A DNA stretch of 64,000 bases, taken from an uncultured SAR86 cluster bacterium. GTDB taxonomy: Bacteria; Pseudomonadota; Gammaproteobacteria; Magnimaribacterales; AG-339-G14. Where the stretch lies: positions 1 through 64,000 of the forward strand of contig CACJUN010000001.1 in NCBI GenBank assembly GCA_902596665.1, in the 5' to 3' direction. The notes under the pieces were generated by a model. It did not search any database and had not been told where the DNA came from. It saw nothing but the letters and a program-made list of their open reading frames with translations. Positions 43,884 to 59,977 of this stretch are shown in pieces (position 1 is the first letter of the stretch; every line of letters starts with the position of its first letter). A program made the translations under genes and the position numbers.

Positions 43884-44219
43884 CCGAGCTGACCGGGTAA
43901 TCGCTGTCAAATAGATAGAGGAAAGTCCGGGCTCCATAGAGAATGATGCCAGATAACGTCTGGGTGCTGTGAAGTAACGGATAGTGCAACAGAAAATAAA
44001 CCGCCTTGTGTTAAAAGGTAAGGGTGAAAAGGTGCGGTAAGAGCGCACCAGACTTTTGGTAACAAAAGTCGTTGGCAAACCCCATCAGGAGCAAGACCAA
44101 ATAGAGACCTGTTAATGTTTCTCGCATTAGGTCAGGGTAGGTTGCTAGAGGTTTATGGCAACATAAATCCCAGAGGAATGATTACCAATTACAGAACCCG
44201 GCTTACAGGTCAGCTCACA
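43884..44219 (+). ncRNA. rnpB: RNase P RNA (type A, reduced P3)
   Basis: RNase P RNA is the catalytic subunit that cuts 5' leaders from pre-tRNAs. The P1 helix pairs GAGCTGACC (43886-43894) with GGTCAGCTC (44208-44216). The first conserved core is GAGGAAAGTCCGGGCTCC (43918-43935), and the matching 3' P4 strand is ACAGAACCCGGCTTAC (44191-44206). The region between P1 and the first core is about 23 nt (about 50 in E. coli), leaving a P3 of only 5 bp (CTGTC/GATAG around AAATA). From P1 to P1 it is 331 nt. It lies between rsmI and mraZ as in Pseudomonas. Confidence 0.95.
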
Positions 44220-44262
44220 AAATAAATATCCTTAAAACCCTTATATTTTGGGACTAAACCTC

Positions 44263-44291
44263 TTGACAGTGATTATACAAATGTCTAAAGT
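44263..44291 (+). promoter_or_regulatory. mraZ/dcw cluster promoter
   Basis: A perfect -35 TTGACA (44263-44268), a 17-bp spacer and TAAAGT (44286-44291) form a good sigma-70 promoter. The start would be near 44298, leaving a leader of about 45 bases before mraZ. Its -10 overlaps the first of four GTG repeats. Confidence 0.7.
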
Positions 44292-44324
44292 GTGCTGAAG
44301 TGCACATTTGTGTATCTATGTGTG
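44290..44324 (+). promoter_or_regulatory. Probable MraZ operator: four GTG half-sites at exact 10-bp spacing
   Basis: GTGTG (44290), GTGCA (44300), GTGTA (44310) and GTGTG (44320) start exactly 10 bp apart, so they face the same side of the helix. MraZ proteins bind tandem GTG-containing repeats with about 10-bp period upstream of their own gene and repress the dcw cluster. The repeats run from the -10 box to 19 bp before mraZ, a suitable place for repression. Confidence 0.65.
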
Positions 44325-44342
44325 TAAAAGGGGTCTTGTTTG

Positions 44343-45681: not shown

Positions 45682-45952
45682 TCAAATGATATTGATATTT
45701 ATTTTAGGATCTCTGATTACTGCTTTTTTTAGTTCCTACTTAGTGTTGAATAAGAATGCTAGTTACAAGCAATTAGTCTCAGAAAAATATCTTTTAAACG
45801 ACTATAAGTCAAAACTAGATGAGGAATCAGTTTATCTCAAGAATAAGATATTAAATCTAACTTCTCACAATTCAGTAAAAGAAAAAACGGTTGATGAATA
45901 CGGAATGATTTTGCCTGAATCCGTTGTTTTGATTCGAGGAGCAGAAAAGTGA
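45674..45952 (+). CDS. ftsL: Cell-division protein FtsL
   Basis: The 92-residue protein has one N-terminal membrane helix (about 4-24) and a periplasmic coiled-coil stretch ending in a short loop, which is the FtsL pattern. It would form the FtsQ-FtsB-FtsL complex that activates FtsWI. Sequence similarity is low, so position after rsmH carries most of the weight. It overlaps the following ftsQ by 4 bp. Confidence 0.8.
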   Translation: MFNQMILIFILGSLITAFFSSYLVLNKNASYKQLVSEKYLLNDYKSKLDEESVYLKNKILNLTSHNSVKEKTVDEYGMILPESVVLIRGAEK

Positions 45953-46500
45953 AATTCTTAACTTTCATTGTAATGATATTTTCTTCAACCTTTGTTTTAT
46001 CCGAAGTTTTTGAAGATCCAAAACCTTTATTTTCAAAAGATAATCCTAACTTTGTTGAATCATCTAAGGAAGTCAATTCTTGGCCAATGAAAAGATTGCA
46101 CGTGAAAGAATTTCAACCGCTAGTTTTTTGGGGAAAAGACCAGATACTGACCCAATCTGGTCGCCTCCTCAAATTTAAAACCAAAGAAAATTTGAAGTTA
46201 GTCAATATTGAAGCAAACAGAAATAATATTGACTTTGTCTTAAGGTATTTTTTTGAACTCAATCAAATTTTGAAAGGGTCTAACTTGGTTCTTAATAGAA
46301 TTCTAATTGAGGATTTTGATTTAATGACCTTAGAGGATAATTCGGGCTTAAGGTTTCACATGAATAAATCAAAAATAGAAAATCAATTAGAAAACCTTAA
46401 AACATTTCTCAAGAGCGAATACTTTAACAACATAAAAGATACCTTTTCATATTTAGATTTAAGGTATCAAAACAAAGGAGCAATTGGGTTTAGAGATTAA
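45949..46500 (+). CDS. ftsQ: FtsQ, truncated: POTRA domain mostly missing
   Basis: The 183-residue protein has one N-terminal hydrophobic helix (about 3-18). WPMKRLHVKEFQPLVFW then matches the last POTRA strand and linker of FtsQ, followed by the beta domain: a DQILTQSGRLLKF strand and the C-terminal YLDLRYQNKGAIGF, both landmarks of FtsQ. E. coli FtsQ has 276 residues. Here most of the POTRA domain between helix and beta domain is gone. The GTG start overlaps ftsL by 4 bp, and no upstream frame supplies the missing part. Confidence 0.8.
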   Translation: MKFLTFIVMIFSSTFVLSEVFEDPKPLFSKDNPNFVESSKEVNSWPMKRLHVKEFQPLVFWGKDQILTQSGRLLKFKTKENLKLVNIEANRNNIDFVLRYFFELNQILKGSNLVLNRILIEDFDLMTLEDNSGLRFHMNKSKIENQLENLKTFLKSEYFNNIKDTFSYLDLRYQNKGAIGFRD

Positions 46501-47749: not shown

Positions 47750-48877
47750 ATGAACTGGACCGTTGTAGAAAATGAAACTAAATCATCTGCTCTTATAAGA
47801 GTAGTTGGAGTAGGTGGAGCTGGAGGAAACGCAGTAAATCATATGGTTGAAAGCGGTATCGAAGGCGTGCAAATGATTTGTGCTAATACAGATGAGCAAG
47901 CGCTTGATACCAATTTAGCAGAATTAAAAATTACTTTAGGAACCGGTATTTCAAATGGTCTTGGAGCAGGAGGAAAACCTGAGGTTGGAAGAGATGCAGC
48001 TCTTGATGATCTTGAAAGAATTAAAACCTTGCTCGAAGGTTCAGATATGGTTTTTGTTGCAGCAGGAATGGGTGGTGGAACTGGAACTGGAGCAGCCCCA
48101 ATTGTTGCCAGAGCTGCTAAAGAAATAGGAGCTTTGACAGTTGCAGTAGTCACCAAGCCATTAGAGCTTGAAATGCGAGATCAAATTGCAGACGTCGGCT
48201 TAAAAGAACTTACGGATGAAGTTGATTCACTAATCGCAATCCCTAACCAAAAATTATTGGAAGTTCTTGGAAGAGAACATAGTCTTCTTGATGCCTTCAA
48301 GCAAGCAAACGATGTTCTATTAGGAGCTGTTAGAGGTATATCAGATATCATCACACAAACCGGACTCGTTAACGTTGATTTTCAAGATGTTAAAACGGTA
48401 ATGTCAGAAAAAGGAACAGCTATGATGGGAACTGGGATTGCAAACGGGCCAAGCAGGGCAAAAGAGGCAGCCTCTGCAGCCGTAGGAAGTCCATTGCTAG
48501 AAGATATAAATCTAGAAAACGCAAAAGGAGTTCTTGTCAATATCACTGCTGGGCCAGATATGAAAACGGGTGAAGTTGAGGAAGTTCTTGCCTTGGTAAG
48601 AGAATTTGCTGCACAAGATGCAACAATCATTCATGGTGTGGCATTTGATGATTCTATGGGAGCAGATATAAAGGTAACAATTGTCGCAACTGGCCTTGGT
48701 GGAAGTGCATCTAAAAAGATGCCTAAAAATACCTTTGAATTTGAATCAGTTGAACCCATCCTCCCGAAGCCAGATATTTCTCATTCTTCTAGGGAAGTTA
48801 AAAAAGTTTCGTCTAGTGATTTAATGGATTCAGAATATCTAGATATTCCATCGTTCGTTAAAAAACAAATAGATTAG
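47750..48877 (+). CDS. ftsZ: Cell-division protein FtsZ
   Basis: FtsZ (375 residues) is the tubulin-like GTPase that forms the division ring. The GTP-binding signature GGGTGTGAAP, the N-terminal GVGGAGGNAVNHM and the C-terminal peptide YLDIPSFVKKQ that binds FtsA and ZipA are all present. The Shine-Dalgarno AAGGAGGG is the strongest in the division cluster. A perfect terminator hairpin lies about 22 bp after the stop. Confidence 0.98.
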   Translation: MNWTVVENETKSSALIRVVGVGGAGGNAVNHMVESGIEGVQMICANTDEQALDTNLAELKITLGTGISNGLGAGGKPEVGRDAALDDLERIKTLLEGSDMVFVAAGMGGGTGTGAAPIVARAAKEIGALTVAVVTKPLELEMRDQIADVGLKELTDEVDSLIAIPNQKLLEVLGREHSLLDAFKQANDVLLGAVRGISDIITQTGLVNVDFQDVKTVMSEKGTAMMGTGIANGPSRAKEAASAAVGSPLLEDINLENAKGVLVNITAGPDMKTGEVEEVLALVREFAAQDATIIHGVAFDDSMGADIKVTIVATGLGGSASKKMPKNTFEFESVEPILPKPDISHSSREVKKVSSSDLMDSEYLDIPSFVKKQID

Positions 48878-48883
48878 TTTTCT

Positions 48884-50512
48884 TTGAGCCATCAAACGGA
48901 AAAAACCAGAGAACTTGTTCTCTGGTTTTTTCTTCCCGTACTTTTTTTACTCCTCTTTGTAAGATTAATATATTTCCAAATAACTGAGGCAGACTTTTCA
49001 TTTGATAAAATTGATAATCGAATTTCACAAAGTAAAGTCATAAAGTCATCACGAGGAAAGATAGTCGATAGAAATGATCGAATATTGGCTGAAGATATTA
49101 TTTTTTACGATATTGGAATAGACCTTAATTATTTTTCGTACAAACCAGAGGAGATAAAATTTATTTCCGATTTATTGAATATCGAGGAGCAAAATTTAAG
49201 AGAAAGATCATCTAATCAGAGGCTTAAATTCATTCAAATTTCTAAAAAAGTAAATAGGGAAAAAGTAGAGGCGCTTAAAAAGGAAAAAATTCAAGGACTA
49301 GTTTTTGATGAAAAATACTATAGAAATTATCCCGAAGGAGAAGCTTTTTCTCAACTAATTGGGATCACTGATATAAATAATGATGGTCTTCAAGGTATAG
49401 AGCTCAGCTTTCAGAAAAGTCTTGATAGCTCAGATGGAAGAATAGATTTAAAGAGAGATGGTAATGGAAAAGTTATTGAAGAAGTCATTGTCCCTGAGAA
49501 GGATGGAGACTTAATTAAGTTATCTATTGATTCAGATTATCAATTTATTGTTTTTGATGAGTTGAAAAAGGCTGTAATTGAAAACAATGCTAGTAATGCT
49601 TCCGCAATAATGATTGATCTAGATACTGAAGAGATTTTAGCTATAACTAATTATCCTAGCTTTAATCCCAACGATAGAAAATCTTTATCAGATATTTCTT
49701 TAGTGACAAACAAGGCATCGATTTCTCTTTTGGAACCCGGTTCTGTTTTAAAACCTCTCAGTATTTCTTTAGCTCTAGACGATGAATTAATTAACGAAGA
49801 TACCTTGATTGATACTAATCCTGGATGGGTTGAATTTGAGGATTACAGAACAGAGGATTTTAGAAATTATGGAATTCTTTCAGTAAGCGAAGTTATAGCT
49901 AAATCAAGTAATGTAGGTACTGTAAAAATTTGCTCTCAAATGAACAAATCAAGAGTAATATCAGGAATACGTTCTTTTGGAATCGGAGAGTACTTTAGTG
50001 AGATGTTTTTAAATCATAGAGAGGGATTTTTGCCTGGGGAACAGAATATTTCCTTAAGAGGTTTAGTTAGTTTATGTTATGGGTATGGTCTCCAGACAAC
50101 TTTGCTTCATATTGCAAAAGCATACACTGGAATTTTAAACGACGGTGTCGAAGCAAATCTAAAAATTATTTCATCTGAAAGTAATGAAATAAGAAGAAGG
50201 ATTCTTAAAAAGGAAACCACTGATAAGATAAAAAATATTTTAATCCATACTGTGAGTAATGGGACTGGAAAACTAGCCAAAGTAAAAGATGGAGTCGTTG
50301 GAGGAAAAACAGGGACAAGCTTCATTTCAAAAAAGCAAGGATATGATGAAGACTCTATAAACGCTCTATTTGTAGGATTCATAGAAAAAAATAGTGAGAG
50401 ATATTTACTGGCAATAATGGTCCAAGAACCAAAAAATGATGTTTCAGGAGGCTCCGATGTTGCAGCTCCAATCTTTTCTAATGTTTTTAAATCAATTTTT
50501 GCTTCCTCATGA
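48884..50512 (+). CDS. ftsI: Division transpeptidase FtsI (PBP3)
   Basis: FtsI (542 residues) cross-links septal peptidoglycan. An N-terminal membrane helix (about 12-34) precedes the dimerisation domain (SSRGKIVDRNDRILAE) and the transpeptidase domain with SxxK (EPGSVLKPL, Ser about 287), SSN (KSSNVG) and KTG (GGKTGTS, about 473). The start is TTG at 48884, since no other start codon precedes the helix. No Shine-Dalgarno site is visible, and a terminator hairpin covers codons 6-16. Weak initiation and the hairpin suggest lower expression than FtsZ. It overlaps murE by 4 bp. Confidence 0.95.
   Translation: MSHQTEKTRELVLWFFLPVLFLLLFVRLIYFQITEADFSFDKIDNRISQSKVIKSSRGKIVDRNDRILAEDIIFYDIGIDLNYFSYKPEEIKFISDLLNIEEQNLRERSSNQRLKFIQISKKVNREKVEALKKEKIQGLVFDEKYYRNYPEGEAFSQLIGITDINNDGLQGIELSFQKSLDSSDGRIDLKRDGNGKVIEEVIVPEKDGDLIKLSIDSDYQFIVFDELKKAVIENNASNASAIMIDLDTEEILAITNYPSFNPNDRKSLSDISLVTNKASISLLEPGSVLKPLSISLALDDELINEDTLIDTNPGWVEFEDYRTEDFRNYGILSVSEVIAKSSNVGTVKICSQMNKSRVISGIRSFGIGEYFSEMFLNHREGFLPGEQNISLRGLVSLCYGYGLQTTLLHIAKAYTGILNDGVEANLKIISSESNEIRRRILKKETTDKIKNILIHTVSNGTGKLAKVKDGVVGGKTGTSFISKKQGYDEDSINALFVGFIEKNSERYLLAIMVQEPKNDVSGGSDVAAPIFSNVFKSIFASS
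48900..48931 (+). terminator. Perfect 14-bp intrinsic terminator after ftsZ, inside the ftsI coding start
   Basis: AAAAAACCAGAGAA (48900-48913) pairs perfectly with TTCTCTGGTTTTTT (48918-48931) around the loop CTTG. The stem ends in a T-run on one side and an A-run on the other, the classic form of a bidirectional intrinsic terminator. It lies 22 bp after the ftsZ stop but covers codons 6-16 of ftsI (start 48884). It may separate ftsZ expression from ftsI and the mur genes, or act as a translation-controlled attenuator. Confidence 0.8.
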
Positions 50513-51948
50513 AAAGTCTAAAGAATTTATTGGACGGCAATAAATTAAAAAGTGATATTCAATTTAAAAAATTATGCATCAATTCAAATGACATAGATCC
50601 AGGAGATATTTTTGTTGCATTAAAAAATTCTTCCAAAAGAGATGGAAATAAATATATAGATCATGCCTTTGATAACGGAGCAGTAGCCATTCTCTCTGGC
50701 ATACATCATGCCAATGATAATAGAAACATAATTCATGTATCTGGTTTAGAAGAAAAACTAGCAGATCTGGCAAATAAGGCCCATGCGTATAATCAAGTTA
50801 AAAAGATATTTGGTATAACTGGTACAAATGGTAAGACCAGCACAATTCATTTTCTCAAACAATTACATGAACAGCTTAATATGAAGGTATCTTTTTTTAA
50901 TTCTATTGAAAATGGAGGTTCAGGCCTCGAGTTACGATCTTCAAATATGACAACTCCTGATATCTTCAAACTTTATAGATTTTTAGAAATATCAAGTGAA
51001 CACAATATTGAGAATTCTTTGCTAGAGGTTTCATCTCATGCAATAGATCAAAAAAGGATCGGGGATATCGAAATCAAATTTAAAGGATTAACAAGTTTCT
51101 CTGAAGACCATCTTGATTACCATGGCAATATGGAGAAGTATTCAGACATAAAAGAATCTTTTTTTGATTCCGATGACTTTTCGTCAGAAGGGTATGTATT
51201 TAATGAGGACAATTATTTAGGGACAAAACTTAAAAAAAAATACAAAAATTCTTATTCATATTCATTTCATAACAAAGATGCTGATGTATTTATACATAAA
51301 AGCTCATCAAATAAATTTTTACTGGATTCAGAAGATATTTTGCCGAAAAAAATTAATGTTAACTTCCAAGGAGATCATTATTTCTCAAATCTGGTTTGTG
51401 CTCTTCTTTTGTTTAAGGTTGCAAACCAAGACGTTGATTTATCAAGCATAGATTTTTTTGACCTTAGTCTGCCTGATGGAAGAAATCAAAAAATAGATTT
51501 TGAAGGAAGAGATGTTTTTATTGATTTTGCACATACTCCAGATGCATTGGATGCAAGTTTAAAATCTTTAAGAAGCACACATTCTGGAAATTTAATTTGT
51601 CTATTTGGATGTGGCGGTGATAGGGATAGATCTAAAAGGTCAAAGATGGGAAAAATAGCAGAAAATTTATCTGATCAGGTTTTCGTTACCAACGATAATC
51701 CAAGGAGTGAAGACCCTGAAAGAATTGTTGAAGATGTATTATCAGGTTGTTCGTCAAAGAAAATAAATGTAATTCTTGATAGAAAAGAAGCTATTCTTGA
51801 ATCACTTGAATCACTTGTAAATAGTAAGCCCGGTTCCGCATTATTAATTGCAGGTAAGGGAAATGAAAATTATCAAGAATTTGAGAATGGATTAAGAAAA
51901 GATTTTAGTGATTTTGAAGTAGTGATGAGTTTTAAGAATGCTATTTGA
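50509..51948 (+). CDS. murE: UDP-MurNAc-L-Ala-D-Glu:meso-DAP ligase
   Basis: MurE (479 residues) adds the third residue of the peptide stem. The ATP loop GITGTNGKTST (about 103-113) is present. DNPRSEDP matches the DNPR motif linked to meso-diaminopimelate specificity, so the stem is the usual Gram-negative DAP type. It overlaps ftsI by 4 bp and murF by 11 bp. Confidence 0.97.
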   Translation: MKSLKNLLDGNKLKSDIQFKKLCINSNDIDPGDIFVALKNSSKRDGNKYIDHAFDNGAVAILSGIHHANDNRNIIHVSGLEEKLADLANKAHAYNQVKKIFGITGTNGKTSTIHFLKQLHEQLNMKVSFFNSIENGGSGLELRSSNMTTPDIFKLYRFLEISSEHNIENSLLEVSSHAIDQKRIGDIEIKFKGLTSFSEDHLDYHGNMEKYSDIKESFFDSDDFSSEGYVFNEDNYLGTKLKKKYKNSYSYSFHNKDADVFIHKSSSNKFLLDSEDILPKKINVNFQGDHYFSNLVCALLLFKVANQDVDLSSIDFFDLSLPDGRNQKIDFEGRDVFIDFAHTPDALDASLKSLRSTHSGNLICLFGCGGDRDRSKRSKMGKIAENLSDQVFVTNDNPRSEDPERIVEDVLSGCSSKKINVILDRKEAILESLESLVNSKPGSALLIAGKGNENYQEFENGLRKDFSDFEVVMSFKNAI

Positions 51949-53176
51949 ATTTTCAAACCAAATATTAGCCGCTAAATTAAATCTTGAGAAACCTAAGAAA
52001 GAATTTGTATCCTCAAAAATAGTTACAGATTCTAGAAAAATTTCAAAAGGTGATTGTTTTCTTGCTTTAAAGGGGCCTAATTTCAATGGACATGATTTTA
52101 TTGATGAAGCATTGAATAGGGGAGCCTCTTTTGTTATTTCTGAAAATAATCACCCTCAAGATGAAAAAATTTTAGGCGTTGATTCAACTCATGAATGTTT
52201 ATCTTTTTTAGCAAAATACCAAAGAAAAAAGTTTGAAGGTAAAGTTATAGGCATCACTGGAAGTAATGGTAAAACTTCGACTAAATTGCTATTGAGCTCT
52301 CTTTTATCCGATAAATTTGATCCATCTCAAATTTATGCATCACCAGGAAACTGGAACAATTTTTACGGATTATGCTTTAGTCTCCTTGAATTAAAAAAAC
52401 ATCATAAATTTGGAATTTTTGAGATAGGAACGAATGACTTTGGTGAAATAAATGAATTGTCGTCAATATTGCAGCCCGAAGTAGGAGTCATCACATCCAT
52501 TGGAAAAGCTCACCTAGAAAAATTAATAAATCTTGAGGGAGTTGCACAAGAGAAATCTGATATTTTTAAAAATGTTTTACCTCAAGGAGCTTGTATCTTC
52601 CCAGATATTCATGCTCATCTGAGTGAGTTTCATGCTAAGTCTCATGATAAAAAGATCAGATCTTTTTCTAGTGATGAACTAAATGCAAAAAAATCAAACA
52701 GTAAGTGTGTAGAAGCAATTCTAGTAAGTTTAGGCATAGAAAATATCTCTTTTGATCAAATATATAATTTATCAAAAGATGTTGTCGTCCCATCTAGGAC
52801 AGAGCAAAGCTATAATTCCAAGGGCGCTTTGATAATTGATGATACTTACAATGCAAATCCTGATTCATTTAAAGAGGCATTTAGAGTCTTAGATTCTACT
52901 GATAAAGAAAATAAAATTTGTGTTATTGGTGATATGAAAGAGCTGGGTAAAGACTTTCAGCAAGAAATGAAAAAAATAATCGATGAAGCCTGTAAGAGAT
53001 TTGATAACGTTTTTTTATTTAACTCCAAATTTGAACTCTCGAAGGAGAATGTAGTCAAAATAAATATTGCTAATGCAGAAGAAAAGATCGGATCTTTATT
53101 GAATAAAAATACTGCCATATTATTTAAGGCATCTAGATCAGTTAAAATAGAAGATTGCATGAATATTTTTAAATAA
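51938..53176 (+). CDS. murF: UDP-MurNAc-tripeptide:D-Ala-D-Ala ligase
   Basis: MurF (412 residues) adds D-Ala-D-Ala to the tripeptide. It has the ATP loop GITGSNGKTSTK, a middle GNWNNFYG segment, and DDTYNANPDS of the C-terminal domain. It is smaller than E. coli MurF (452), but no motif is lost. It shares one base with mraY. Confidence 0.96.
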   Translation: MLFEFSNQILAAKLNLEKPKKEFVSSKIVTDSRKISKGDCFLALKGPNFNGHDFIDEALNRGASFVISENNHPQDEKILGVDSTHECLSFLAKYQRKKFEGKVIGITGSNGKTSTKLLLSSLLSDKFDPSQIYASPGNWNNFYGLCFSLLELKKHHKFGIFEIGTNDFGEINELSSILQPEVGVITSIGKAHLEKLINLEGVAQEKSDIFKNVLPQGACIFPDIHAHLSEFHAKSHDKKIRSFSSDELNAKKSNSKCVEAILVSLGIENISFDQIYNLSKDVVVPSRTEQSYNSKGALIIDDTYNANPDSFKEAFRVLDSTDKENKICVIGDMKELGKDFQQEMKKIIDEACKRFDNVFLFNSKFELSKENVVKINIANAEEKIGSLLNKNTAILFKASRSVKIEDCMNIFK

Positions 53177-54258
53177 TGTTTTTACCTATTTTAGAAATTC
53201 TAGCTGAAAGCTATGGTCCCTTGAGGATTTTCAATTATCTTACTTTTAGAGCAATTTTAGCCACTCTAACTTCATTGATTTTCTGCCTATCCTTTGGAAA
53301 TTGGTTCATTACTTTTTTGAAAATGGAAAGGTTTAATCAATACATTAGAAAAGAAGGACCCGAAAGACATCTTATTAAAGAAGGAACTCCAACAATGGGG
53401 GGGCTGCTTATTTTAGCAGCTGTAGTATTTTCAGTTTTTTGTTGGGGGGACTTATCAAATAAGTACCTCTGGTTGGTATTATTTATGACAGTTTCATTTG
53501 GGGTAATTGGCTGGATAGATGATTTAACTAAACTAAAAACTCAGTCAAGCAATGGACTTACAAGTAGACAGAAGTTTTTTTGGCAGTCTCTATCAGCTTT
53601 TATCGGCATAATAATCTTTTATACATATTCCACAAATCCCCTTGAGACGAGCTTAATAATTCCTTTTTTCAAAGATTTTTCTTTGCCGTTAGGTTTATTT
53701 TTTATTTTCTTTTCTTATTTTGTAATTGTTGGCTCAAGTAGCGCGGTGAATCTTACAGATGGCTTAGATGGTCTTGCAATAATGCCTTCAGTAATGATTG
53801 CAGCTGCTTTAGGAGTCCTTGGATATGCATCTGGAAACATAATCATTTCAGATTATCTCAATATTCCATATTTACCACTATCAGGTGAAATGCTTGTTTT
53901 TTGTGGAGCTATTGTAGGCTCTGGAATTGGATTTCTATGGTTCAATACTTATCCTGCTCAAGTCTTTATGGGAGATGTAGGCTCTCTTTCATTAGGGGCA
54001 GCACTTGGAGCAATTGCGGTTATGATAAGGCAAGAAATAGTGTTTGCGATTATGGCAGGAGTTTTTGTTGCCGAGACGTTATCTGTCATGATCCAGGTTA
54101 CTTCATACAAATTAACTGGTAAAAGGGTGTTCAAAATGGCTCCTTTGCATCACCATTTTGAATTATCAGGATGGGCAGAACCAAAGATTATTGTGAGATT
54201 CTGGATAATTACATTAATTCTAATTCTTATTGGATTTGCTACCCTCAGACTTAGGTAG
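53176..54258 (+). CDS. mraY: Phospho-MurNAc-pentapeptide transferase
   Basis: MraY (360 residues) transfers phospho-MurNAc-pentapeptide to undecaprenyl phosphate, making lipid I. It is a ten-helix membrane protein with GTPTMGG, WIDDLTKLK, NLTDGLDGLA, GDVGSLSLG and HHHFE, all catalytic or substrate blocks. It shares one base with murF. Confidence 0.98.
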   Translation: MFLPILEILAESYGPLRIFNYLTFRAILATLTSLIFCLSFGNWFITFLKMERFNQYIRKEGPERHLIKEGTPTMGGLLILAAVVFSVFCWGDLSNKYLWLVLFMTVSFGVIGWIDDLTKLKTQSSNGLTSRQKFFWQSLSAFIGIIIFYTYSTNPLETSLIIPFFKDFSLPLGLFFIFFSYFVIVGSSSAVNLTDGLDGLAIMPSVMIAAALGVLGYASGNIIISDYLNIPYLPLSGEMLVFCGAIVGSGIGFLWFNTYPAQVFMGDVGSLSLGAALGAIAVMIRQEIVFAIMAGVFVAETLSVMIQVTSYKLTGKRVFKMAPLHHHFELSGWAEPKIIVRFWIITLILILIGFATLRLR

Positions 54259-54262
54259 CCAA

Positions 54263-55465
54263 GTGTTAAAAAAAACTTCACGATCACTTATTTTAGGACT
54301 TGGTCAAACCGGCTTATCTCTTTTCAATTACTTAATCAAATTTGAACAAGAGCCAATTATTTTTGATACCAGAGATGATCCTCCATGCAAAAAAGAATTA
54401 CTTAAAAAAAGTAAAAATCCTCTAATTATTTCTAATCTCAAGGAGATAGCTTTTGATGAGGTTCGATCGTGTTATGTCAGTCCTGGATTTGATATCAGTC
54501 ATGAAATAGTTAAAAAGTTGAACACTCATAATATTGAAATCCTTTCAGATTTAGATCTCTTTTTAAAATTTCATGCTAAAAATTCAATTCTTGTTACAGG
54601 AACAAATGGAAAAACATCTGTAGTATCTTTGCTTCAACACATCATGAAATCCTTGGAACTTAAGGTTAAAAGTATAGGAAATAATGGTTTTCCTGTGCTT
54701 GATCACATTGAAGATCAACTGGATTATTTTGTAATCGAAGTATCTTCTTTTCAGATAGAAAGGACAAAGTCTTTATCAAGCTTAGTTTCTGTATTATTAA
54801 ATATTTCTCCTGATCATTTGGATGTTCACGATTCTTTTGAACAGTACACAAAAATAAAAAAAAGGATATTTGAAAACTCAAACTTTAAAATTGGACCCGA
54901 AGGATTAGGATTAGATTTAGATTTCATTCTGCCTGAGATCACAGATCATGAAATTTATAATAAAGAAGCTGTAAAAAGCATTCTTTTACACATAGGCCTC
55001 AAAAAAAAATCCATTGAGGAGAAAATACTTACCTTTAATCCGCTTCCCCATCGCCTTGAAGATATTTCTTTAAATAAACACCTCACCATCATAAATGACT
55101 CTAAATCTACCAATCCACATTCACTTAATGCTGCAATAAATAAATATAAAGATGAAAAAATTATTTTAATTATGGGCGGGTTAAAAAAGAATCTAAGTTT
55201 TAGACCACTTATGGAGGTTCTTAAGAGAAATACTAAGAAAGTTTTTGTTTATGGTGCGGACAGAGAAAAGATTTCAAATGAAATAGAAGAGTTAAACCCA
55301 ATCGTGCTTGAGAGTATGGGTCGAGCTGTGAAAGAGGCTATTAATTATTCGACTAAAAATGATTTGGTCTTATTTTCTCCCGGTTGTTCAAGTTTTGATG
55401 AATTTCAAAACTATGAAGAAAGAGGGTCTAAGTTTAAAGAATTAATCAAAAAATATGTTGGCTAG
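54263..55465 (+). CDS. murD: UDP-MurNAc-L-Ala:D-Glu ligase
   Basis: MurD (400 residues) adds D-glutamate to UDP-MurNAc-L-Ala. ILGLGQTGLSLFNYL is the N-terminal UDP-binding domain, VTGTNGKTSVVSLL the ATP loop, and NDSKSTNPHS and LFSPGCSSFDEFQNYEERG belong to the C-terminal domain. The central domain is shortened compared with E. coli (438 residues). GTG at 54263, 5 bp after the mraY stop, is the most likely start; an in-frame TTG at 54230 lies inside mraY. Confidence 0.95.
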   Translation: MLKKTSRSLILGLGQTGLSLFNYLIKFEQEPIIFDTRDDPPCKKELLKKSKNPLIISNLKEIAFDEVRSCYVSPGFDISHEIVKKLNTHNIEILSDLDLFLKFHAKNSILVTGTNGKTSVVSLLQHIMKSLELKVKSIGNNGFPVLDHIEDQLDYFVIEVSSFQIERTKSLSSLVSVLLNISPDHLDVHDSFEQYTKIKKRIFENSNFKIGPEGLGLDLDFILPEITDHEIYNKEAVKSILLHIGLKKKSIEEKILTFNPLPHRLEDISLNKHLTIINDSKSTNPHSLNAAINKYKDEKIILIMGGLKKNLSFRPLMEVLKRNTKKVFVYGADREKISNEIEELNPIVLESMGRAVKEAINYSTKNDLVLFSPGCSSFDEFQNYEERGSKFKELIKKYVG

Positions 55466-56627
55466 AAAGCAAAACTTTGTAAATAGAATTTTATTTGGAA
55501 GTCACGATCGGAACATTAATTTTGATAATTTCGACTTCACAACAATAACAATATCTATTTTCTTAGCTTTTTTTGGAATCTTGATGGTTTCGAGCATTTC
55601 ATTTAACGAGTTAACCACTAGGCACATATTTAATTTGATGGTGGGTTTCGTTCTTTTCTTTTTTATATTCAGGTTTGAGATGAGTACATGGAGAAATATT
55701 GATTTATATCTCATTTTTTTATCGCTCTTTCTTTTGTTGATACTCTTAGTGCCGAATCTTGCACCAGAAATAAACGGTGCAAAGAGGTGGATAAGGTTCC
55801 TTGGTTTTAGTTTCCAGCCTGCTGAATTAGCCAAGTTATCATTATTGATTTATGTATCATCTTTTTGTATCAGGAAGAAAGAAGAATTCAAATCAAATTG
55901 GACAGGTTTTTGGAAGCCCATTTTCATAATGGTCTCTCTTATTTCTTTAATTTTATTGCAACCAGATCTAGGTTCTTCAGCAATTATCTTTTTGGTCACT
56001 CTCACAATTATGTTTATAGCTGGTGCGCCTATTGTTCATTTTATTGCAATCTCCATAGTAGGTCTTTTAACATTTGTTTTGATGATTTTTTTGGTTCCTT
56101 GGAGATTTCAAAGAATACTTACATTTATGAATCCATGGGAAAATGCCCAAGAAGGAGGATATCAACTGACAAGATCCTTTTCTGCTATTGGCAGAGGTGA
56201 CTGGTTTGGCACCGGATATGGAGAAAGTTGGTTGAAATTAAATTTACTACCAGATGCTCAAACTGACTTTGTTTTTTCAATTATTTTGGAAGAATTTGGT
56301 AGTTTTTTTGGATTAATTTTAATTTTTATTTTTCTAGTTTTAGTCATAAGATGTTTCATGATTGGACGTTTAGCAAGACAAATGAATCAAATGTTTAATT
56401 CATTTATTGCATATGGCATAGGTACTCTGATTGGGTTACATGTTTTTATCAATATCGGCGTGTCTATAGGACTACTTCCAACAAAAGGGCTGACGTTGCC
56501 TTTTTTGAGCTATGGCGGTTCCAATTTATTTCTGACCTTTATTTTGATTTCACTGATTCAAAGAATATATTTTGAATTAAATGAATCAGATAGACATAAA
56601 GTGATATCGAGGAGGAAAAATTTCTAA
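55455..56627 (+). CDS. ftsW: Septal peptidoglycan glycosyltransferase FtsW
   Basis: FtsW (390 residues) is a SEDS polymerase that works with FtsI. About ten membrane helices are visible, with GAKRWIRFLGFSFQPAELAKL, LLQPDLGSS, PWENAQEGGYQLTRS and PFLSYGGSN. It overlaps murD by 11 bp, and its end overlaps the inferred AUU start of murG by 8 bp. Confidence 0.97.
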   Translation: MLARKQNFVNRILFGSHDRNINFDNFDFTTITISIFLAFFGILMVSSISFNELTTRHIFNLMVGFVLFFFIFRFEMSTWRNIDLYLIFLSLFLLLILLVPNLAPEINGAKRWIRFLGFSFQPAELAKLSLLIYVSSFCIRKKEEFKSNWTGFWKPIFIMVSLISLILLQPDLGSSAIIFLVTLTIMFIAGAPIVHFIAISIVGLLTFVLMIFLVPWRFQRILTFMNPWENAQEGGYQLTRSFSAIGRGDWFGTGYGESWLKLNLLPDAQTDFVFSIILEEFGSFFGLILIFIFLVLVIRCFMIGRLARQMNQMFNSFIAYGIGTLIGLHVFINIGVSIGLLPTKGLTLPFLSYGGSNLFLTFILISLIQRIYFELNESDRHKVISRRKNF

Positions 56628-57690
56628 AAAATTCTTCATAGTTGCTGGAGGAACAGGAGGTCATGTATTTCCTGCTGAGCAAATTGCGAGAGACTTATTA
56701 AAAAAAGATATCTCCATAATCTGGATTGGTACAGCCAGAGGACCTGAGAAAAATATATGTAAAAAGCTTGGTATCAAATTTATAGAATATGATTTGGTAG
56801 GTTTCAGAGGAAAGGGCTTGATTAATAAACTTTCTTCAGTTCTAAAATTATTTCGCTCTGGATTAAAATTTTTTTTCAAATATAGAGTTTTCTCCAGTCA
56901 GAATGATCAAATGATTGTTTTTGGAGGATACACTTCATTGATCGCTTTATTTTTCCCTTTAAGAACAATCTACGCACAAGAGCAAAATTCAATACCTGGT
57001 TCTGCAATAAGGATTCTTTCAAAGTTAAAATATCTTGATAAAGTATTTTTGGGCTTCGGTCAGGCATCTAATTATTTCAAAAAAACTAAAGTCAATTTTC
57101 TTGTTGATAGTGGCAATCCTATACGGGATGAACTTTTAGGCTTAAAACAAAAAAATATTGATCAGTTCAACAACCTTCTAATAATTGGTGGCAGCCAAGG
57201 TTCAGATTTTTTAAATCATTTGGTTCCAAAAGTTCTTGGGGGAATCGATAAAAACAGCTTGAAAATCCGTCATCAGTGTGGATTAAAACATAGAGAAATC
57301 ACCCAAGAAGCTTATAAGAAAAATAATGTAAATAATCAGTTCACAGTAAGTGAATTTATAGATGATATGAGGGAAGCATATGAATGGAGCGATATTGTCA
57401 TTTGTAGGGGAGGCGCGCTGACAATATCAGAATTAATCAAGGTTAGAAGATCAGCATTTATAATCCCAATTCCAAATTCAATTGATAATCACCAAATTTT
57501 AAATGCAAAATTTTTTGAAGAAAGAGGATTTGGAAAGGTTTTTGAACAAGATGCCGATATTGATAACTTGATATCAAGCCTCAGAAAATCAATTTTAGAT
57601 AATACTTCTGTAAAAAGTTATTATGAGCAACTTAATAAGAATTCATTTAGTAACTCTTCGAAAATTATCATTGATAATTTAAATATCTAA
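56620..57690 (+). CDS. murG: Lipid II synthase MurG, apparent ATT start codon
   Basis: MurG (about 356 residues; E. coli 355) transfers GlcNAc from UDP-GlcNAc to lipid I on the inner face of the membrane. The glycine-rich start FFIVAGGTGGHVFPAEQIA and the C-terminal ICRGGALTISELI are typical. The frame is open upstream only to TGA at 56602 and has no ATG, GTG or TTG before the glycine loop. GAGGAGG (56609-56615), a strong Shine-Dalgarno site, points to ATT at 56620, giving fMet-SKKFFIVAGG, which fits the family start. A TTG at 56794 would remove 58 residues including the loop. Confidence 0.92.
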   Translation: MSKKFFIVAGGTGGHVFPAEQIARDLLKKDISIIWIGTARGPEKNICKKLGIKFIEYDLVGFRGKGLINKLSSVLKLFRSGLKFFFKYRVFSSQNDQMIVFGGYTSLIALFFPLRTIYAQEQNSIPGSAIRILSKLKYLDKVFLGFGQASNYFKKTKVNFLVDSGNPIRDELLGLKQKNIDQFNNLLIIGGSQGSDFLNHLVPKVLGGIDKNSLKIRHQCGLKHREITQEAYKKNNVNNQFTVSEFIDDMREAYEWSDIVICRGGALTISELIKVRRSAFIIPIPNSIDNHQILNAKFFEERGFGKVFEQDADIDNLISSLRKSILDNTSVKSYYEQLNKNSFSNSSKIIIDNLNI

Positions 57691-59063
57691 TGTCCAGCAT
57701 AAAAAATATTCATCTAATTGGTATCGGTGGAGCAGGTATGAGCGGAATTGCAGAAATTCTTCATAACCAAGACTACTCTGTCTCAGGAAGTGATCTAGAG
57801 GATACAAATGTGACAAAAAGATTAAAAAATCTAGGGGTAAAAATTTTTAAAGGCCACAAAGAAAAAAATGTCTTAAAAAAAGATCTTGTAGTGATTTCAT
57901 CGGCAATATCAAAAAAAAATGTTGAGCTTAAAAAAGCAATTTCTATGGGCATACCAGTTATTCCTAGGGCTGAAATGTTGGCTAATCTTATGATGCTTAA
58001 AAATAGCATTGCGGTAGCAGGCAGCCATGGAAAAACGACCGTAACTTGCATGATGGCCCATATTTTCACTGAGGCAGGCCTAGATCCTACTTACATCATT
58101 GGAGGCAAAGTAAAGTCTTTTGAATCAAATGCGAAATTAGGTCTTGGTGAGCATATCATTGCAGAAGCTGACGAGAGTGATGGATCTTTCTTAAACCTCA
58201 GGCCTCTGAAAGCTTTAGTTACAAATATAGATAACGATCATTTAGGTACTTATGGTAATGACTTCAATAATTTAAAAAAGTCTTTTAAAAAATTTTGTCT
58301 CTCATTACCTTTTCAAGGCTACTTAATTGCCAATGGCGATGATAAATCGATTAAAAATATTATTAAAAACATACCAAGGAATTCTTTTTCTTTTGGAAAA
58401 GATAAAAGTAACGACTATCAAATCAAAGATATAAAACAAAACATCAGAGGAACAAGTTTTAAGCTACAAGATAATTTCTTTAAAAAAAATTATAGCTTTT
58501 CCATGTCAATGCATGGCGAACATAACGTGATGAATGCAACATCTGCGATTGTTGCCGCTATTCAAGAAAATATTGATGTATCTATCATAAAAAAATCACT
58601 CAAAACTTGCTCCTCAATCGAAAGACGTTTTGAAATAATTTCTCATGATATTTTTTCAAAAAAGATTACTCTTGTTGATGATTACGGACATCATCCCAAA
58701 GAGATTAAATATTCTCACGACACAGCATCAGAAATATGGAAAAACAAAAAAAAGATTGTTGTTTTTCAACCGCATAGATACACGCGAACCAAGGATCTTT
58801 TTGATGAATTTATAAAAACTCTTTTAAATATAGAAAACCTTCTATTGCTTGATATTTATCCCGCAAGCGAGAAGATAATTAAAGGCTATGAAGGCAAAGA
58901 TCTATTTCAAGCTCTTAAAAAGAATGGCTCAAAGGTATTATTTTGTCAAAATCATACTGAGGTAATTGAAAAACTCGAAAATATGACCTCTGGAAATGAG
59001 GTCATCATAACTCAGGGAGCAGGGACTACCTCAGAGCTTGCAAGAAAGATATCAAATCTATGA
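57690..59063 (+). CDS. murC: UDP-N-acetylmuramate:L-alanine ligase
   Basis: MurC (457 residues) adds the first L-alanine to UDP-MurNAc. IHLIGIGGAGMSGIAE is the N-terminal binding loop, VAGSHGKTTVT the ATP loop, AEADESDGSFL a substrate segment, and DDYGHHPKEI and FQPHRYTRT the C-terminal domain. It shares one base with murG and overlaps ddl by 4 bp. Confidence 0.97.
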   Translation: MSSIKNIHLIGIGGAGMSGIAEILHNQDYSVSGSDLEDTNVTKRLKNLGVKIFKGHKEKNVLKKDLVVISSAISKKNVELKKAISMGIPVIPRAEMLANLMMLKNSIAVAGSHGKTTVTCMMAHIFTEAGLDPTYIIGGKVKSFESNAKLGLGEHIIAEADESDGSFLNLRPLKALVTNIDNDHLGTYGNDFNNLKKSFKKFCLSLPFQGYLIANGDDKSIKNIIKNIPRNSFSFGKDKSNDYQIKDIKQNIRGTSFKLQDNFFKKNYSFSMSMHGEHNVMNATSAIVAAIQENIDVSIIKKSLKTCSSIERRFEIISHDIFSKKITLVDDYGHHPKEIKYSHDTASEIWKNKKKIVVFQPHRYTRTKDLFDEFIKTLLNIENLLLLDIYPASEKIIKGYEGKDLFQALKKNGSKVLFCQNHTEVIEKLENMTSGNEVIITQGAGTTSELARKISNL

Positions 59064-59977
59064 TAAATAAAAATATCGCAGTATTATGCGGCGGTTGGTC
59101 AGAGGAAAGGCTCATTTCTTTAAAGAGCGGAGATTCCGTATACAAATGTCTGAAAGAAAATGGTTATGAAGTTTCAAAAATTGATGTCAAAACTGCAAGT
59201 GAGGCATTCAATAAGGAGCTATATTCCGAGTTCGATCTAGTCTTTATTTTGCTTCATGGCAGAGGAGGGGAAGATGGAGAAATTCAAAAGTTCTTTGAGG
59301 AAAATGACATTGTATTTACTGGATCAAATTCGCAGTCTTCCAGAATTACGATGAATAAAATAAAGACTAAAGAAATTTGGAAGAAAAATAATATTAAAAC
59401 ACCCGAATATTTTGTCTATGAGAAAAACTTTCTCTTAGATAATTTATCCTCATTCGAAAAGTGGGTAATCAAACCAAATTTAGAGGGATCTTCGAACGGG
59501 ATCTCCTTTTATAACAACTTTGAAGGGAAAGAGGATTTTCAAAAGAAAATTAATCTAGCAAAAAAGTTTGATGATTCAGTATTAATAGAAAGGTTTATAG
59601 ATGGTAAAGAAATAACTGTACCGATAATTAACAAAAAATGCCTTAGGCCCATTCACATTATTCCAGAAGGTGAGTTTTATGATTTTGATGCCAAATATGT
59701 TTCCAATAAAACAAAATATTTAGAGTACGCGATAGAATCAGAAAGGTTGGATGCTTTGAATAATCTCGCAATTAATGCATATGAACTTGTTGGGGCCGAA
59801 AATTGGGGCCGCATTGATATTATTGATGACGGATTAGATTATTTCCTTATAGAACTAAACTCGGTTCCCGGCATGACGGAAACTAGTTTAGTTCCAAAAT
59901 CATCCCATCTCTCTGGCATTAGCTATCTTGAATTACTGGAGAGCATTATGGATGATGCTCTTGCCAAAAAAGCTTAA
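59060..59977 (+). CDS. ddl: D-alanine:D-alanine ligase
   Basis: Ddl (305 residues) makes D-Ala-D-Ala for MurF. An ATP-grasp fold is visible: CGGWSEERLISLKSG, HGRGGEDGEIQ, KPNLEGSSNGIS, ENWGRIDI and ELNSVPGMTETSLVPKS. It ends the division/cell-wall run. The usual ftsQ-ftsA-ftsZ-lpxC that follow it are not here. Alr at 62752 supplies its D-alanine. Confidence 0.96.
   Translation: MINKNIAVLCGGWSEERLISLKSGDSVYKCLKENGYEVSKIDVKTASEAFNKELYSEFDLVFILLHGRGGEDGEIQKFFEENDIVFTGSNSQSSRITMNKIKTKEIWKKNNIKTPEYFVYEKNFLLDNLSSFEKWVIKPNLEGSSNGISFYNNFEGKEDFQKKINLAKKFDDSVLIERFIDGKEITVPIINKKCLRPIHIIPEGEFYDFDAKYVSNKTKYLEYAIESERLDALNNLAINAYELVGAENWGRIDIIDDGLDYFLIELNSVPGMTETSLVPKSSHLSGISYLELLESIMDDALAKKA

Follow-up and report, generated by a model that had tools for sequence, protein, structure and literature searches.

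The division and cell-wall gene cluster of an uncultured SAR86 bacterium raises the question of why a hairpin built like an intrinsic terminator should lie in the first codons of ftsI, with a long series of co-directional genes beyond it. The cluster is encoded on the forward strand of the window, the whole stretch of 64,000 nucleotides analysed here, in the order mraZ, mraW, ftsL, an FtsQ-like ORF, ftsA, ftsZ, ftsI, murE, murF, mraY, murD, ftsW, murG, murC and ddl. Pfam matches support mraW, ftsA, ftsZ and ftsI, while the ORFs at the ftsL and ftsQ positions have no Pfam match, the second of these (45949-46500, 183 aa) being short for FtsQ. ftsZ (47750..48877, +; PF00091, PF12327) is directly upstream of ftsI, which encodes PBP3 (48884..50512, +; PF00905, PF03717), and the eight genes from murE to ddl (50509..59977, +), named by order and sequence, follow in the same direction past the hairpin. 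The ORF list thus agrees with the earlier note, which had placed ftsQAZ upstream of ftsI and the genes from ftsI to ddl beyond the hairpin on the same strand. These co-directional genes continue without a clear new promoter, as past the hairpin only weak consensus matches were found, fewer than in shuffled sequence. At the other end of the cluster, in the region 43885-44340, an RNase P RNA gene is directly upstream of mraZ, with a promoter-like site (TTGACA-17-TAAAGT, 44263-44291) between the two and a small hairpin with a T-rich tail (44290-44305) after this site. The order ftsA-ftsZ-ftsI is common to SAR86 families f1 and f2, whereas families f3 and f4 have ftsZ followed by mraW, with ftsI later.

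The hairpin consists of a perfect 14-bp stem on the forward strand, with arms AAAAAACCAGAGAA (48900-48913) and TTCTCTGGTTTTTT (48918-48931) and the loop CTTG (48914-48917), and begins 22 nt after the ftsZ stop codon (48875-48877). This stem and loop with a terminal T-run in ftsI codons 6-16, and their distance from ftsZ, had been described in the earlier note and can be read directly from the sequence. A G-C pair (48899-48932) and a G-U pair (48898-48933) lengthen the stem to 16 bp, so that the whole hairpin, as supported by sequence, fold and a genome census, spans 48898..48933. The right arm ends in six T residues (48926-48931), followed by CTTCCC, and this T6 is itself paired in the stem; the U-tract TTTTTTCTT is located at 48926..48934 and RNA 3' ends are predicted there, at approximately 48930-48936. 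The left arm begins with the A-tract A6 (48900..48905), through which the hairpin also resembles a terminator when read on the minus strand (match at 48906-48925), and no minus-strand gene is known that would use a terminator on this side.

Folding of positions 48850-48960 gave -25.5 kcal/mol (z = -3.7 against dinucleotide shuffles), with -21.1 kcal/mol for the full stem and -12.4 kcal/mol for a 10-bp piece of it, and the 8-bp core CCAGAGAA/TTCTCTGG, with its loop of 4, forms a stable stem containing G and C. The hairpin is single-copy in the genome, which rules out a repeat element, and is identical in eight separately assembled genomes, which rules out an artefact of assembly or single-cell amplification. 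No Rfam family covers the hairpin in the window, and none reached its gathering score in the loci tested from the window's genus (g1), genus g4 or family f3.

The hairpin is also protein-coding. ftsI, which shares the frame of ftsZ, starts at a TTG 6 nt past the ftsZ stop, and that frame offers no other common start codon (TAG TTT TCT TTG, and TAG ATT TCT TTG in sister genomes). This start is retained as TTG in genera g2, g3 and g4 and has no Shine-Dalgarno-like run ahead of it, in accordance with the TTG start without a visible ribosome site reported earlier. At the hairpin the protein reads EKTRELVLWFF, and this aligns with NKYRELTLWII or close variants in the three sister genera; to judge from these residues the reading frame through the hairpin is real coding sequence, so that both readings of this DNA are real. 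By hydrophobicity, codons 11 to approximately 33 (48914..48982, +) probably encode the N-terminal membrane segment LVLWFFLPVLFLLLFVRLIYFQI of FtsI, the first residues of which are encoded by the hairpin loop and right arm. A start beyond the hairpin was rejected, since no in-frame ATG, GTG or TTG occurs before the membrane segment would be lost and KTRELVLW in this protein aligns with KYRELxLW in the sister genera.

Comparison with other stems of the same genome places the hairpin among its terminators. A census of perfect Watson-Crick stems (12 bp or longer, loop 3-8 nt) was made on the 620-kb contig that holds the window (contig 1, 620 of 1279 kb, about half of the genome), using gene calls from a simple ORF rule rather than a trained gene finder. 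It yielded 16 stems, all of them arranged as A-tract, stem and T-tract: 13 are intergenic, two overlap gene 3' ends and one, that of ftsI, is within the 5' part of a gene. The ftsI hairpin shares the build of the other 15, with an A-tract, a stem including 4-5 G-C pairs and a T-tract, and its U-tract falls within the spread seen for terminators elsewhere in the genome. The ftsI stem starts 21-22 nt past the ftsZ stop, compared with 9-18 nt from a gene end for most of the others. A stable stem, a U-tract directly after it and a location past a gene 3' end are all present, and by its sequence the hairpin is a member of its genome's terminator class in an unusual position; its description in the earlier note as terminator-like held in every sequence comparison made. 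A consensus terminator scanner missed the hairpin because it demands T residues after the fully extended stem, yet T6 is paired here, and was replaced by a custom scan. When G-U pairs were allowed in a looser scan, only three further sense matches fell within genes: the first coincides with a predicted gene start, perhaps miscalled, the second is close to a gene's 3' end and the third is well downstream in its gene.

It might be supposed that the RELxLW motif and the AT-rich codons of the membrane helix happen to form a palindrome, given that the core AGAGAACTT..TTCTCTGG is spelled by conserved residues and that A-rich Lys and Glu codons followed by T-rich Phe codons favour pairing. Shuffles that preserve the protein almost never yield such a hairpin: when the 584 genes predicted on the 620-kb contig were all shuffled synonymously, in 20 rounds, the mean number of coding stems was 0.65 at 12 bp or longer, 0.1 at 13 bp or longer and 0 at 14 bp or longer, whereas the ftsI stem has 15 Watson-Crick pairs in the same count. 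A codon-level null for the ftsI start gave p = 0.003, the limit of 300 samples. A by-product of coding is also difficult to reconcile with a near-invariant KY that became KT in the window's genus, adding pairs, with a rare CTC codon frozen in two genera and with the frozen hairpin codons of g4 (both described below), and this explanation is considered very improbable.

Conservation within the window's genus was assessed in a small sample of closely related genomes, eight of which, out of nine, cover the site, the contig of the ninth stopping short. The same hairpin is present in 8/8 of these, with the U-tract and A-tract complete and identical, and is included in an invariant block of 47 nt (48890..48936, +) that is the longest invariant run in ftsZ and ftsI. 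Third positions of ftsI differ between genus pairs by up to about 21%, or up to 28% in pairs with L037, which are inflated by a frame shift near the 3' end that puts that part out of frame. When codon columns were permuted over the first 450 codons, a run this long arose in 368 of 20000 trials (1.8%), and the freezing of all ten degenerate stem codons in the genus has p = 0.011. Genus invariance alone therefore gives moderate support for selection on the hairpin, the relatives being close and the p values between 0.01 and 0.02. The compensatory synonymous changes that the earlier note had proposed as a test in relatives are not to be seen within the genus, where all eight sequences are identical, but re-pairing does appear in g4 and g3.

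A tree of FtsZ and the FtsI N-terminus relates the genera as (g1,(g3,(g2,g4))), with 100% support for g2+g3+g4 and for g2+g4, and the close stop-to-start geometry of ftsZ and ftsI is kept in g2-g4. In g3 a 7-bp core (CAGAGAA/TTCTCTG) is formed over the same ftsI codons. One leucine codon of g3 is the rare CTC in 11/11 genomes, which holds for no other of the 41 conserved leucine columns. T immediately precedes it, whichever of four amino acids the codon before specifies, and two left-arm changes (AGG and GAG) each retain pairing as G-U. In g4 the hairpin is a 24-bp stem in a different register with one bulge and 97% of cells paired. It is the most strongly structured of 199 gene starts, and among 30360 windows of 60 nt from 200 kb of coding DNA no other has a stronger structure. 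Nine of the 12 degenerate codons in this stem do not vary among the g4 genomes, whereas in the rest of the gene about 20% are identical (p about 6e-5), and UA, UG and CG occur at one pair, with wobble-compatible changes at others. These three pair types at one pair did not beat column shuffles in g4, because most stem columns never vary, and as a formal proof of covariation the family-wide hairpin is only moderate. The ftsI start of g2 has an interrupted stem. In structure the ftsI start ranks 24/198 in g3, 34/206 in g2 and 31/198 in f2, which is raised and not exceptional, and the excess structure in each of these taken singly is weak (p mostly 0.06-0.2). Separately from ftsI, the start of a folP-like gene (1935-2060 in the window) forms a 5' hairpin of -25.9 kcal/mol, stronger than any other in the first 200 kb, and the folP start of the g2 genome G009 is likewise among the strongest 5' hairpins there.

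A hairpin has thus been retained at these codons even as the pairs that form it changed, and protein constraint alone would hardly account for this. What the comparison across the family reveals is selection for a hairpin, as distinct from termination. The hairpins of g2-g4 are without a clear U-tract; the full U-tract, present in g1 and not in g2-g4, is to that extent a property of the window's genus only. Terminator-like matches outside genes number 33 in 600 kb in the window's genus, 2 in g4, 0 in g2 and 2 in g3 (200 kb each), and 9 in g8, a genus of family f2. The scarcity of intrinsic terminators in g2-g4 fits the confinement of the U-tract to the window's genus, and their commonness there and near absence from g2, g3 and g4 suggest a lineage-specific loss or gain of intrinsic termination. 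The terminator-like loci compared were L127-L156 (genomes G014, G009 and G010) and L056-L085 (genome G000).

Two further hairpins, both in family f3, were unpredicted and were met by looking around, and are leads. A covarying hairpin occurs in the last ftsZ codons (GTTGGCACATCG ... CGATGTGCCAAC; about positions 200-290, gene orientation, of L111, L119, L110 and other loci), with two pairs changed on both sides, a compensatory change of GGC/GTG to GGT/GTA and 94% of cells paired against 38-50% when slid. Its Ser-Ser-Ala codons TCG TCT GCA are identical in 13/13 genomes, and a search of one f3 locus gave no Rfam match for it. Right after ftsZ, f3 loci L107-L121 have a small hairpin (TTCCAG ... 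CTGGAA) over mraW codons 4-10, in which the leucine codon CTG is frozen in 13/13 genomes, against 6% of degenerate mraW codons that are identical. In g8 a small hairpin followed by TTTTTAT is found at the same place as that of ftsI, and is not significant alone.

The reading preferred here, with a probability of about 0.6, is that the hairpin serves the ftsQAZ portion of the cluster as a leaky intrinsic (Rho-independent) terminator, so near to ftsZ that it falls in the first codons of ftsI, and that it holds the genes from ftsI to ddl below ftsZ. RNA polymerase passing the end of ftsZ would form the stem containing C and G and pause on the U-tract, where a fraction would halt close to 48931 and give an ftsZ mRNA whose 3' end is protected, and the remainder would read through into ftsI-ddl, so that one cluster would yield more ftsZ than ftsI and mur mRNA. 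Besides termination itself, we infer its efficiency and its role in stoichiometry, as well as any role of the ribosome: ribosomes restarting at the TTG would tend to open the hairpin, and translation may thereby modulate the leak. A strong hairpin with T6 could let hardly any polymerase pass; as ftsI and the mur genes are essential, the cell would then pay a high price unless they had a promoter past the hairpin.

The earlier note had gone further and proposed a translation-dependent attenuator, in which read-through is set by whether a ribosome that has re-initiated at the ftsI TTG reaches the left arm early enough to cover it, with FtsI and the Mur enzymes following the translation state. 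The TTG is 14 nt before the 16-bp stem and in frame with the ftsZ stop 6 nt upstream of it, the stem overlaps the codons that such a ribosome would read, and the close coupling is kept in g2-g4; the same geometry follows trivially from a terminator at a normal distance past ftsZ. A ribosome just starting on the TTG covers only to about 48899, which would leave the stem free, and the restart would need to be fast. There is a precedent in the ribosome-read terminator in the short coding region bmrB of Bacillus subtilis (PMC4191407), but ftsI showed neither an antiterminator pairing nor a leader peptide nor a regulatory codon, and the single 111-nt fold contained no competing structure. This kind of control is possible though unlikely, and a fixed leaky terminator is the simpler of several mechanisms that fit.

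The hairpins of g3 and g4, kept without a clear U-tract, could instead indicate a post-transcriptional role, in which the structure marks or protects the ftsZ mRNA 3' end after cleavage, is itself a cleavage site or damps ftsI translation, and termination in g1 is a later addition. The 24-bp stem of g4 is of RNase III size, and f3, with its other gene order, has the covarying hairpin at the ftsZ 3' end and the small one over the first mraW codons. Such a role accords poorly with the complete and identical U-tract and A-tract of the eight genus genomes, and long, bulged, U-poor internal terminators of clostridia still terminate (PMC9045158), so that the g4 hairpin may also terminate. The post-transcriptional role is regarded as unlikely, although the function shared with g2-g4 may differ from termination. 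Still more tentatively, a SAR86-wide regulatory RNA hairpin may exist at the ftsZ 3' boundary, overlapping coding sequence, re-paired between genera while keeping to one set of ftsI codons and made into a genuine terminator just where a lineage employs intrinsic termination, as a dual-coding device that would fix FtsZ against FtsI and Mur and be read by ribosomes restarting at the TTG.

Cells generally need far more FtsZ than FtsI. As both are encoded in one co-directional cluster with ftsZ first, a leaky terminator in the ftsI codons would be a compact answer to this need, and it would appear that a strong terminator is able to live within the membrane-helix codons of an essential gene. This suggests that one stretch of DNA both encodes protein and sets the output of downstream cell-wall genes, and the hairpin would be an example of synonymous sites under selection in a marine lineage that is major and uncultured. 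Transcripts of SAR86 ftsZ have already been counted in metatranscriptomes as a growth index (PMC13349992), and the coverage step predicted at 48931 may be visible in existing metatranscriptome data.

A terminator between ftsZ and ftsI would be unusual for a dcw cluster, because in Burkholderia cenocepacia, as in Escherichia coli, a terminator is reported only at the end of the cluster (PMC7761207), and the gene order here also differs. The UpsM element of the Rhodobacter sphaeroides dcw 5' leader similarly gates the cluster by an intrinsic terminator with read-through, but it precedes mraZ in an untranslated leader and yields an sRNA (PMC5089854). FtsO of E. coli is likewise an RNA element in the ftsI coding sequence with conserved wobble positions, but its ends are ascribed mainly to processing rather than to an intrinsic terminator and it sponges RybB (PMC7815308), and the two are likened without a claim of homology or shared position. 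In the bmrBCD operon of B. subtilis, an intrinsic terminator in a coding region upstream of operon genes is sensed by ribosomes (PMC4191407); the coding region in that case, bmrB, is a short leader ORF that has antiterminator structures, whereas ftsI is full-length and essential and showed no alternative fold over 111 nt. Operon-internal termination in Methanococcus maripaludis also lowers downstream genes with a physiological effect, though in other genes and by archaeal termination (PMC10450193). In the ABC-importer operons of cellulolytic Clostridia, leaky internal terminators with measured termination of 21-96% set the ratios of upstream to downstream genes (PMC9045158). Those terminators are intergenic, whereas the SAR86 hairpin, known from sequence only, is wholly in the coding start of ftsI in a division and cell-wall cluster. 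As in SAR86, the clostridial stem-loops follow a highly needed upstream gene and precede its co-directional partners, with Type I, in which the U-tail is >5, resembling the hairpin of the window, and Types III and IV, which are long with unpaired stem positions and few U residues, resembling that of g4 (PMC9045158).
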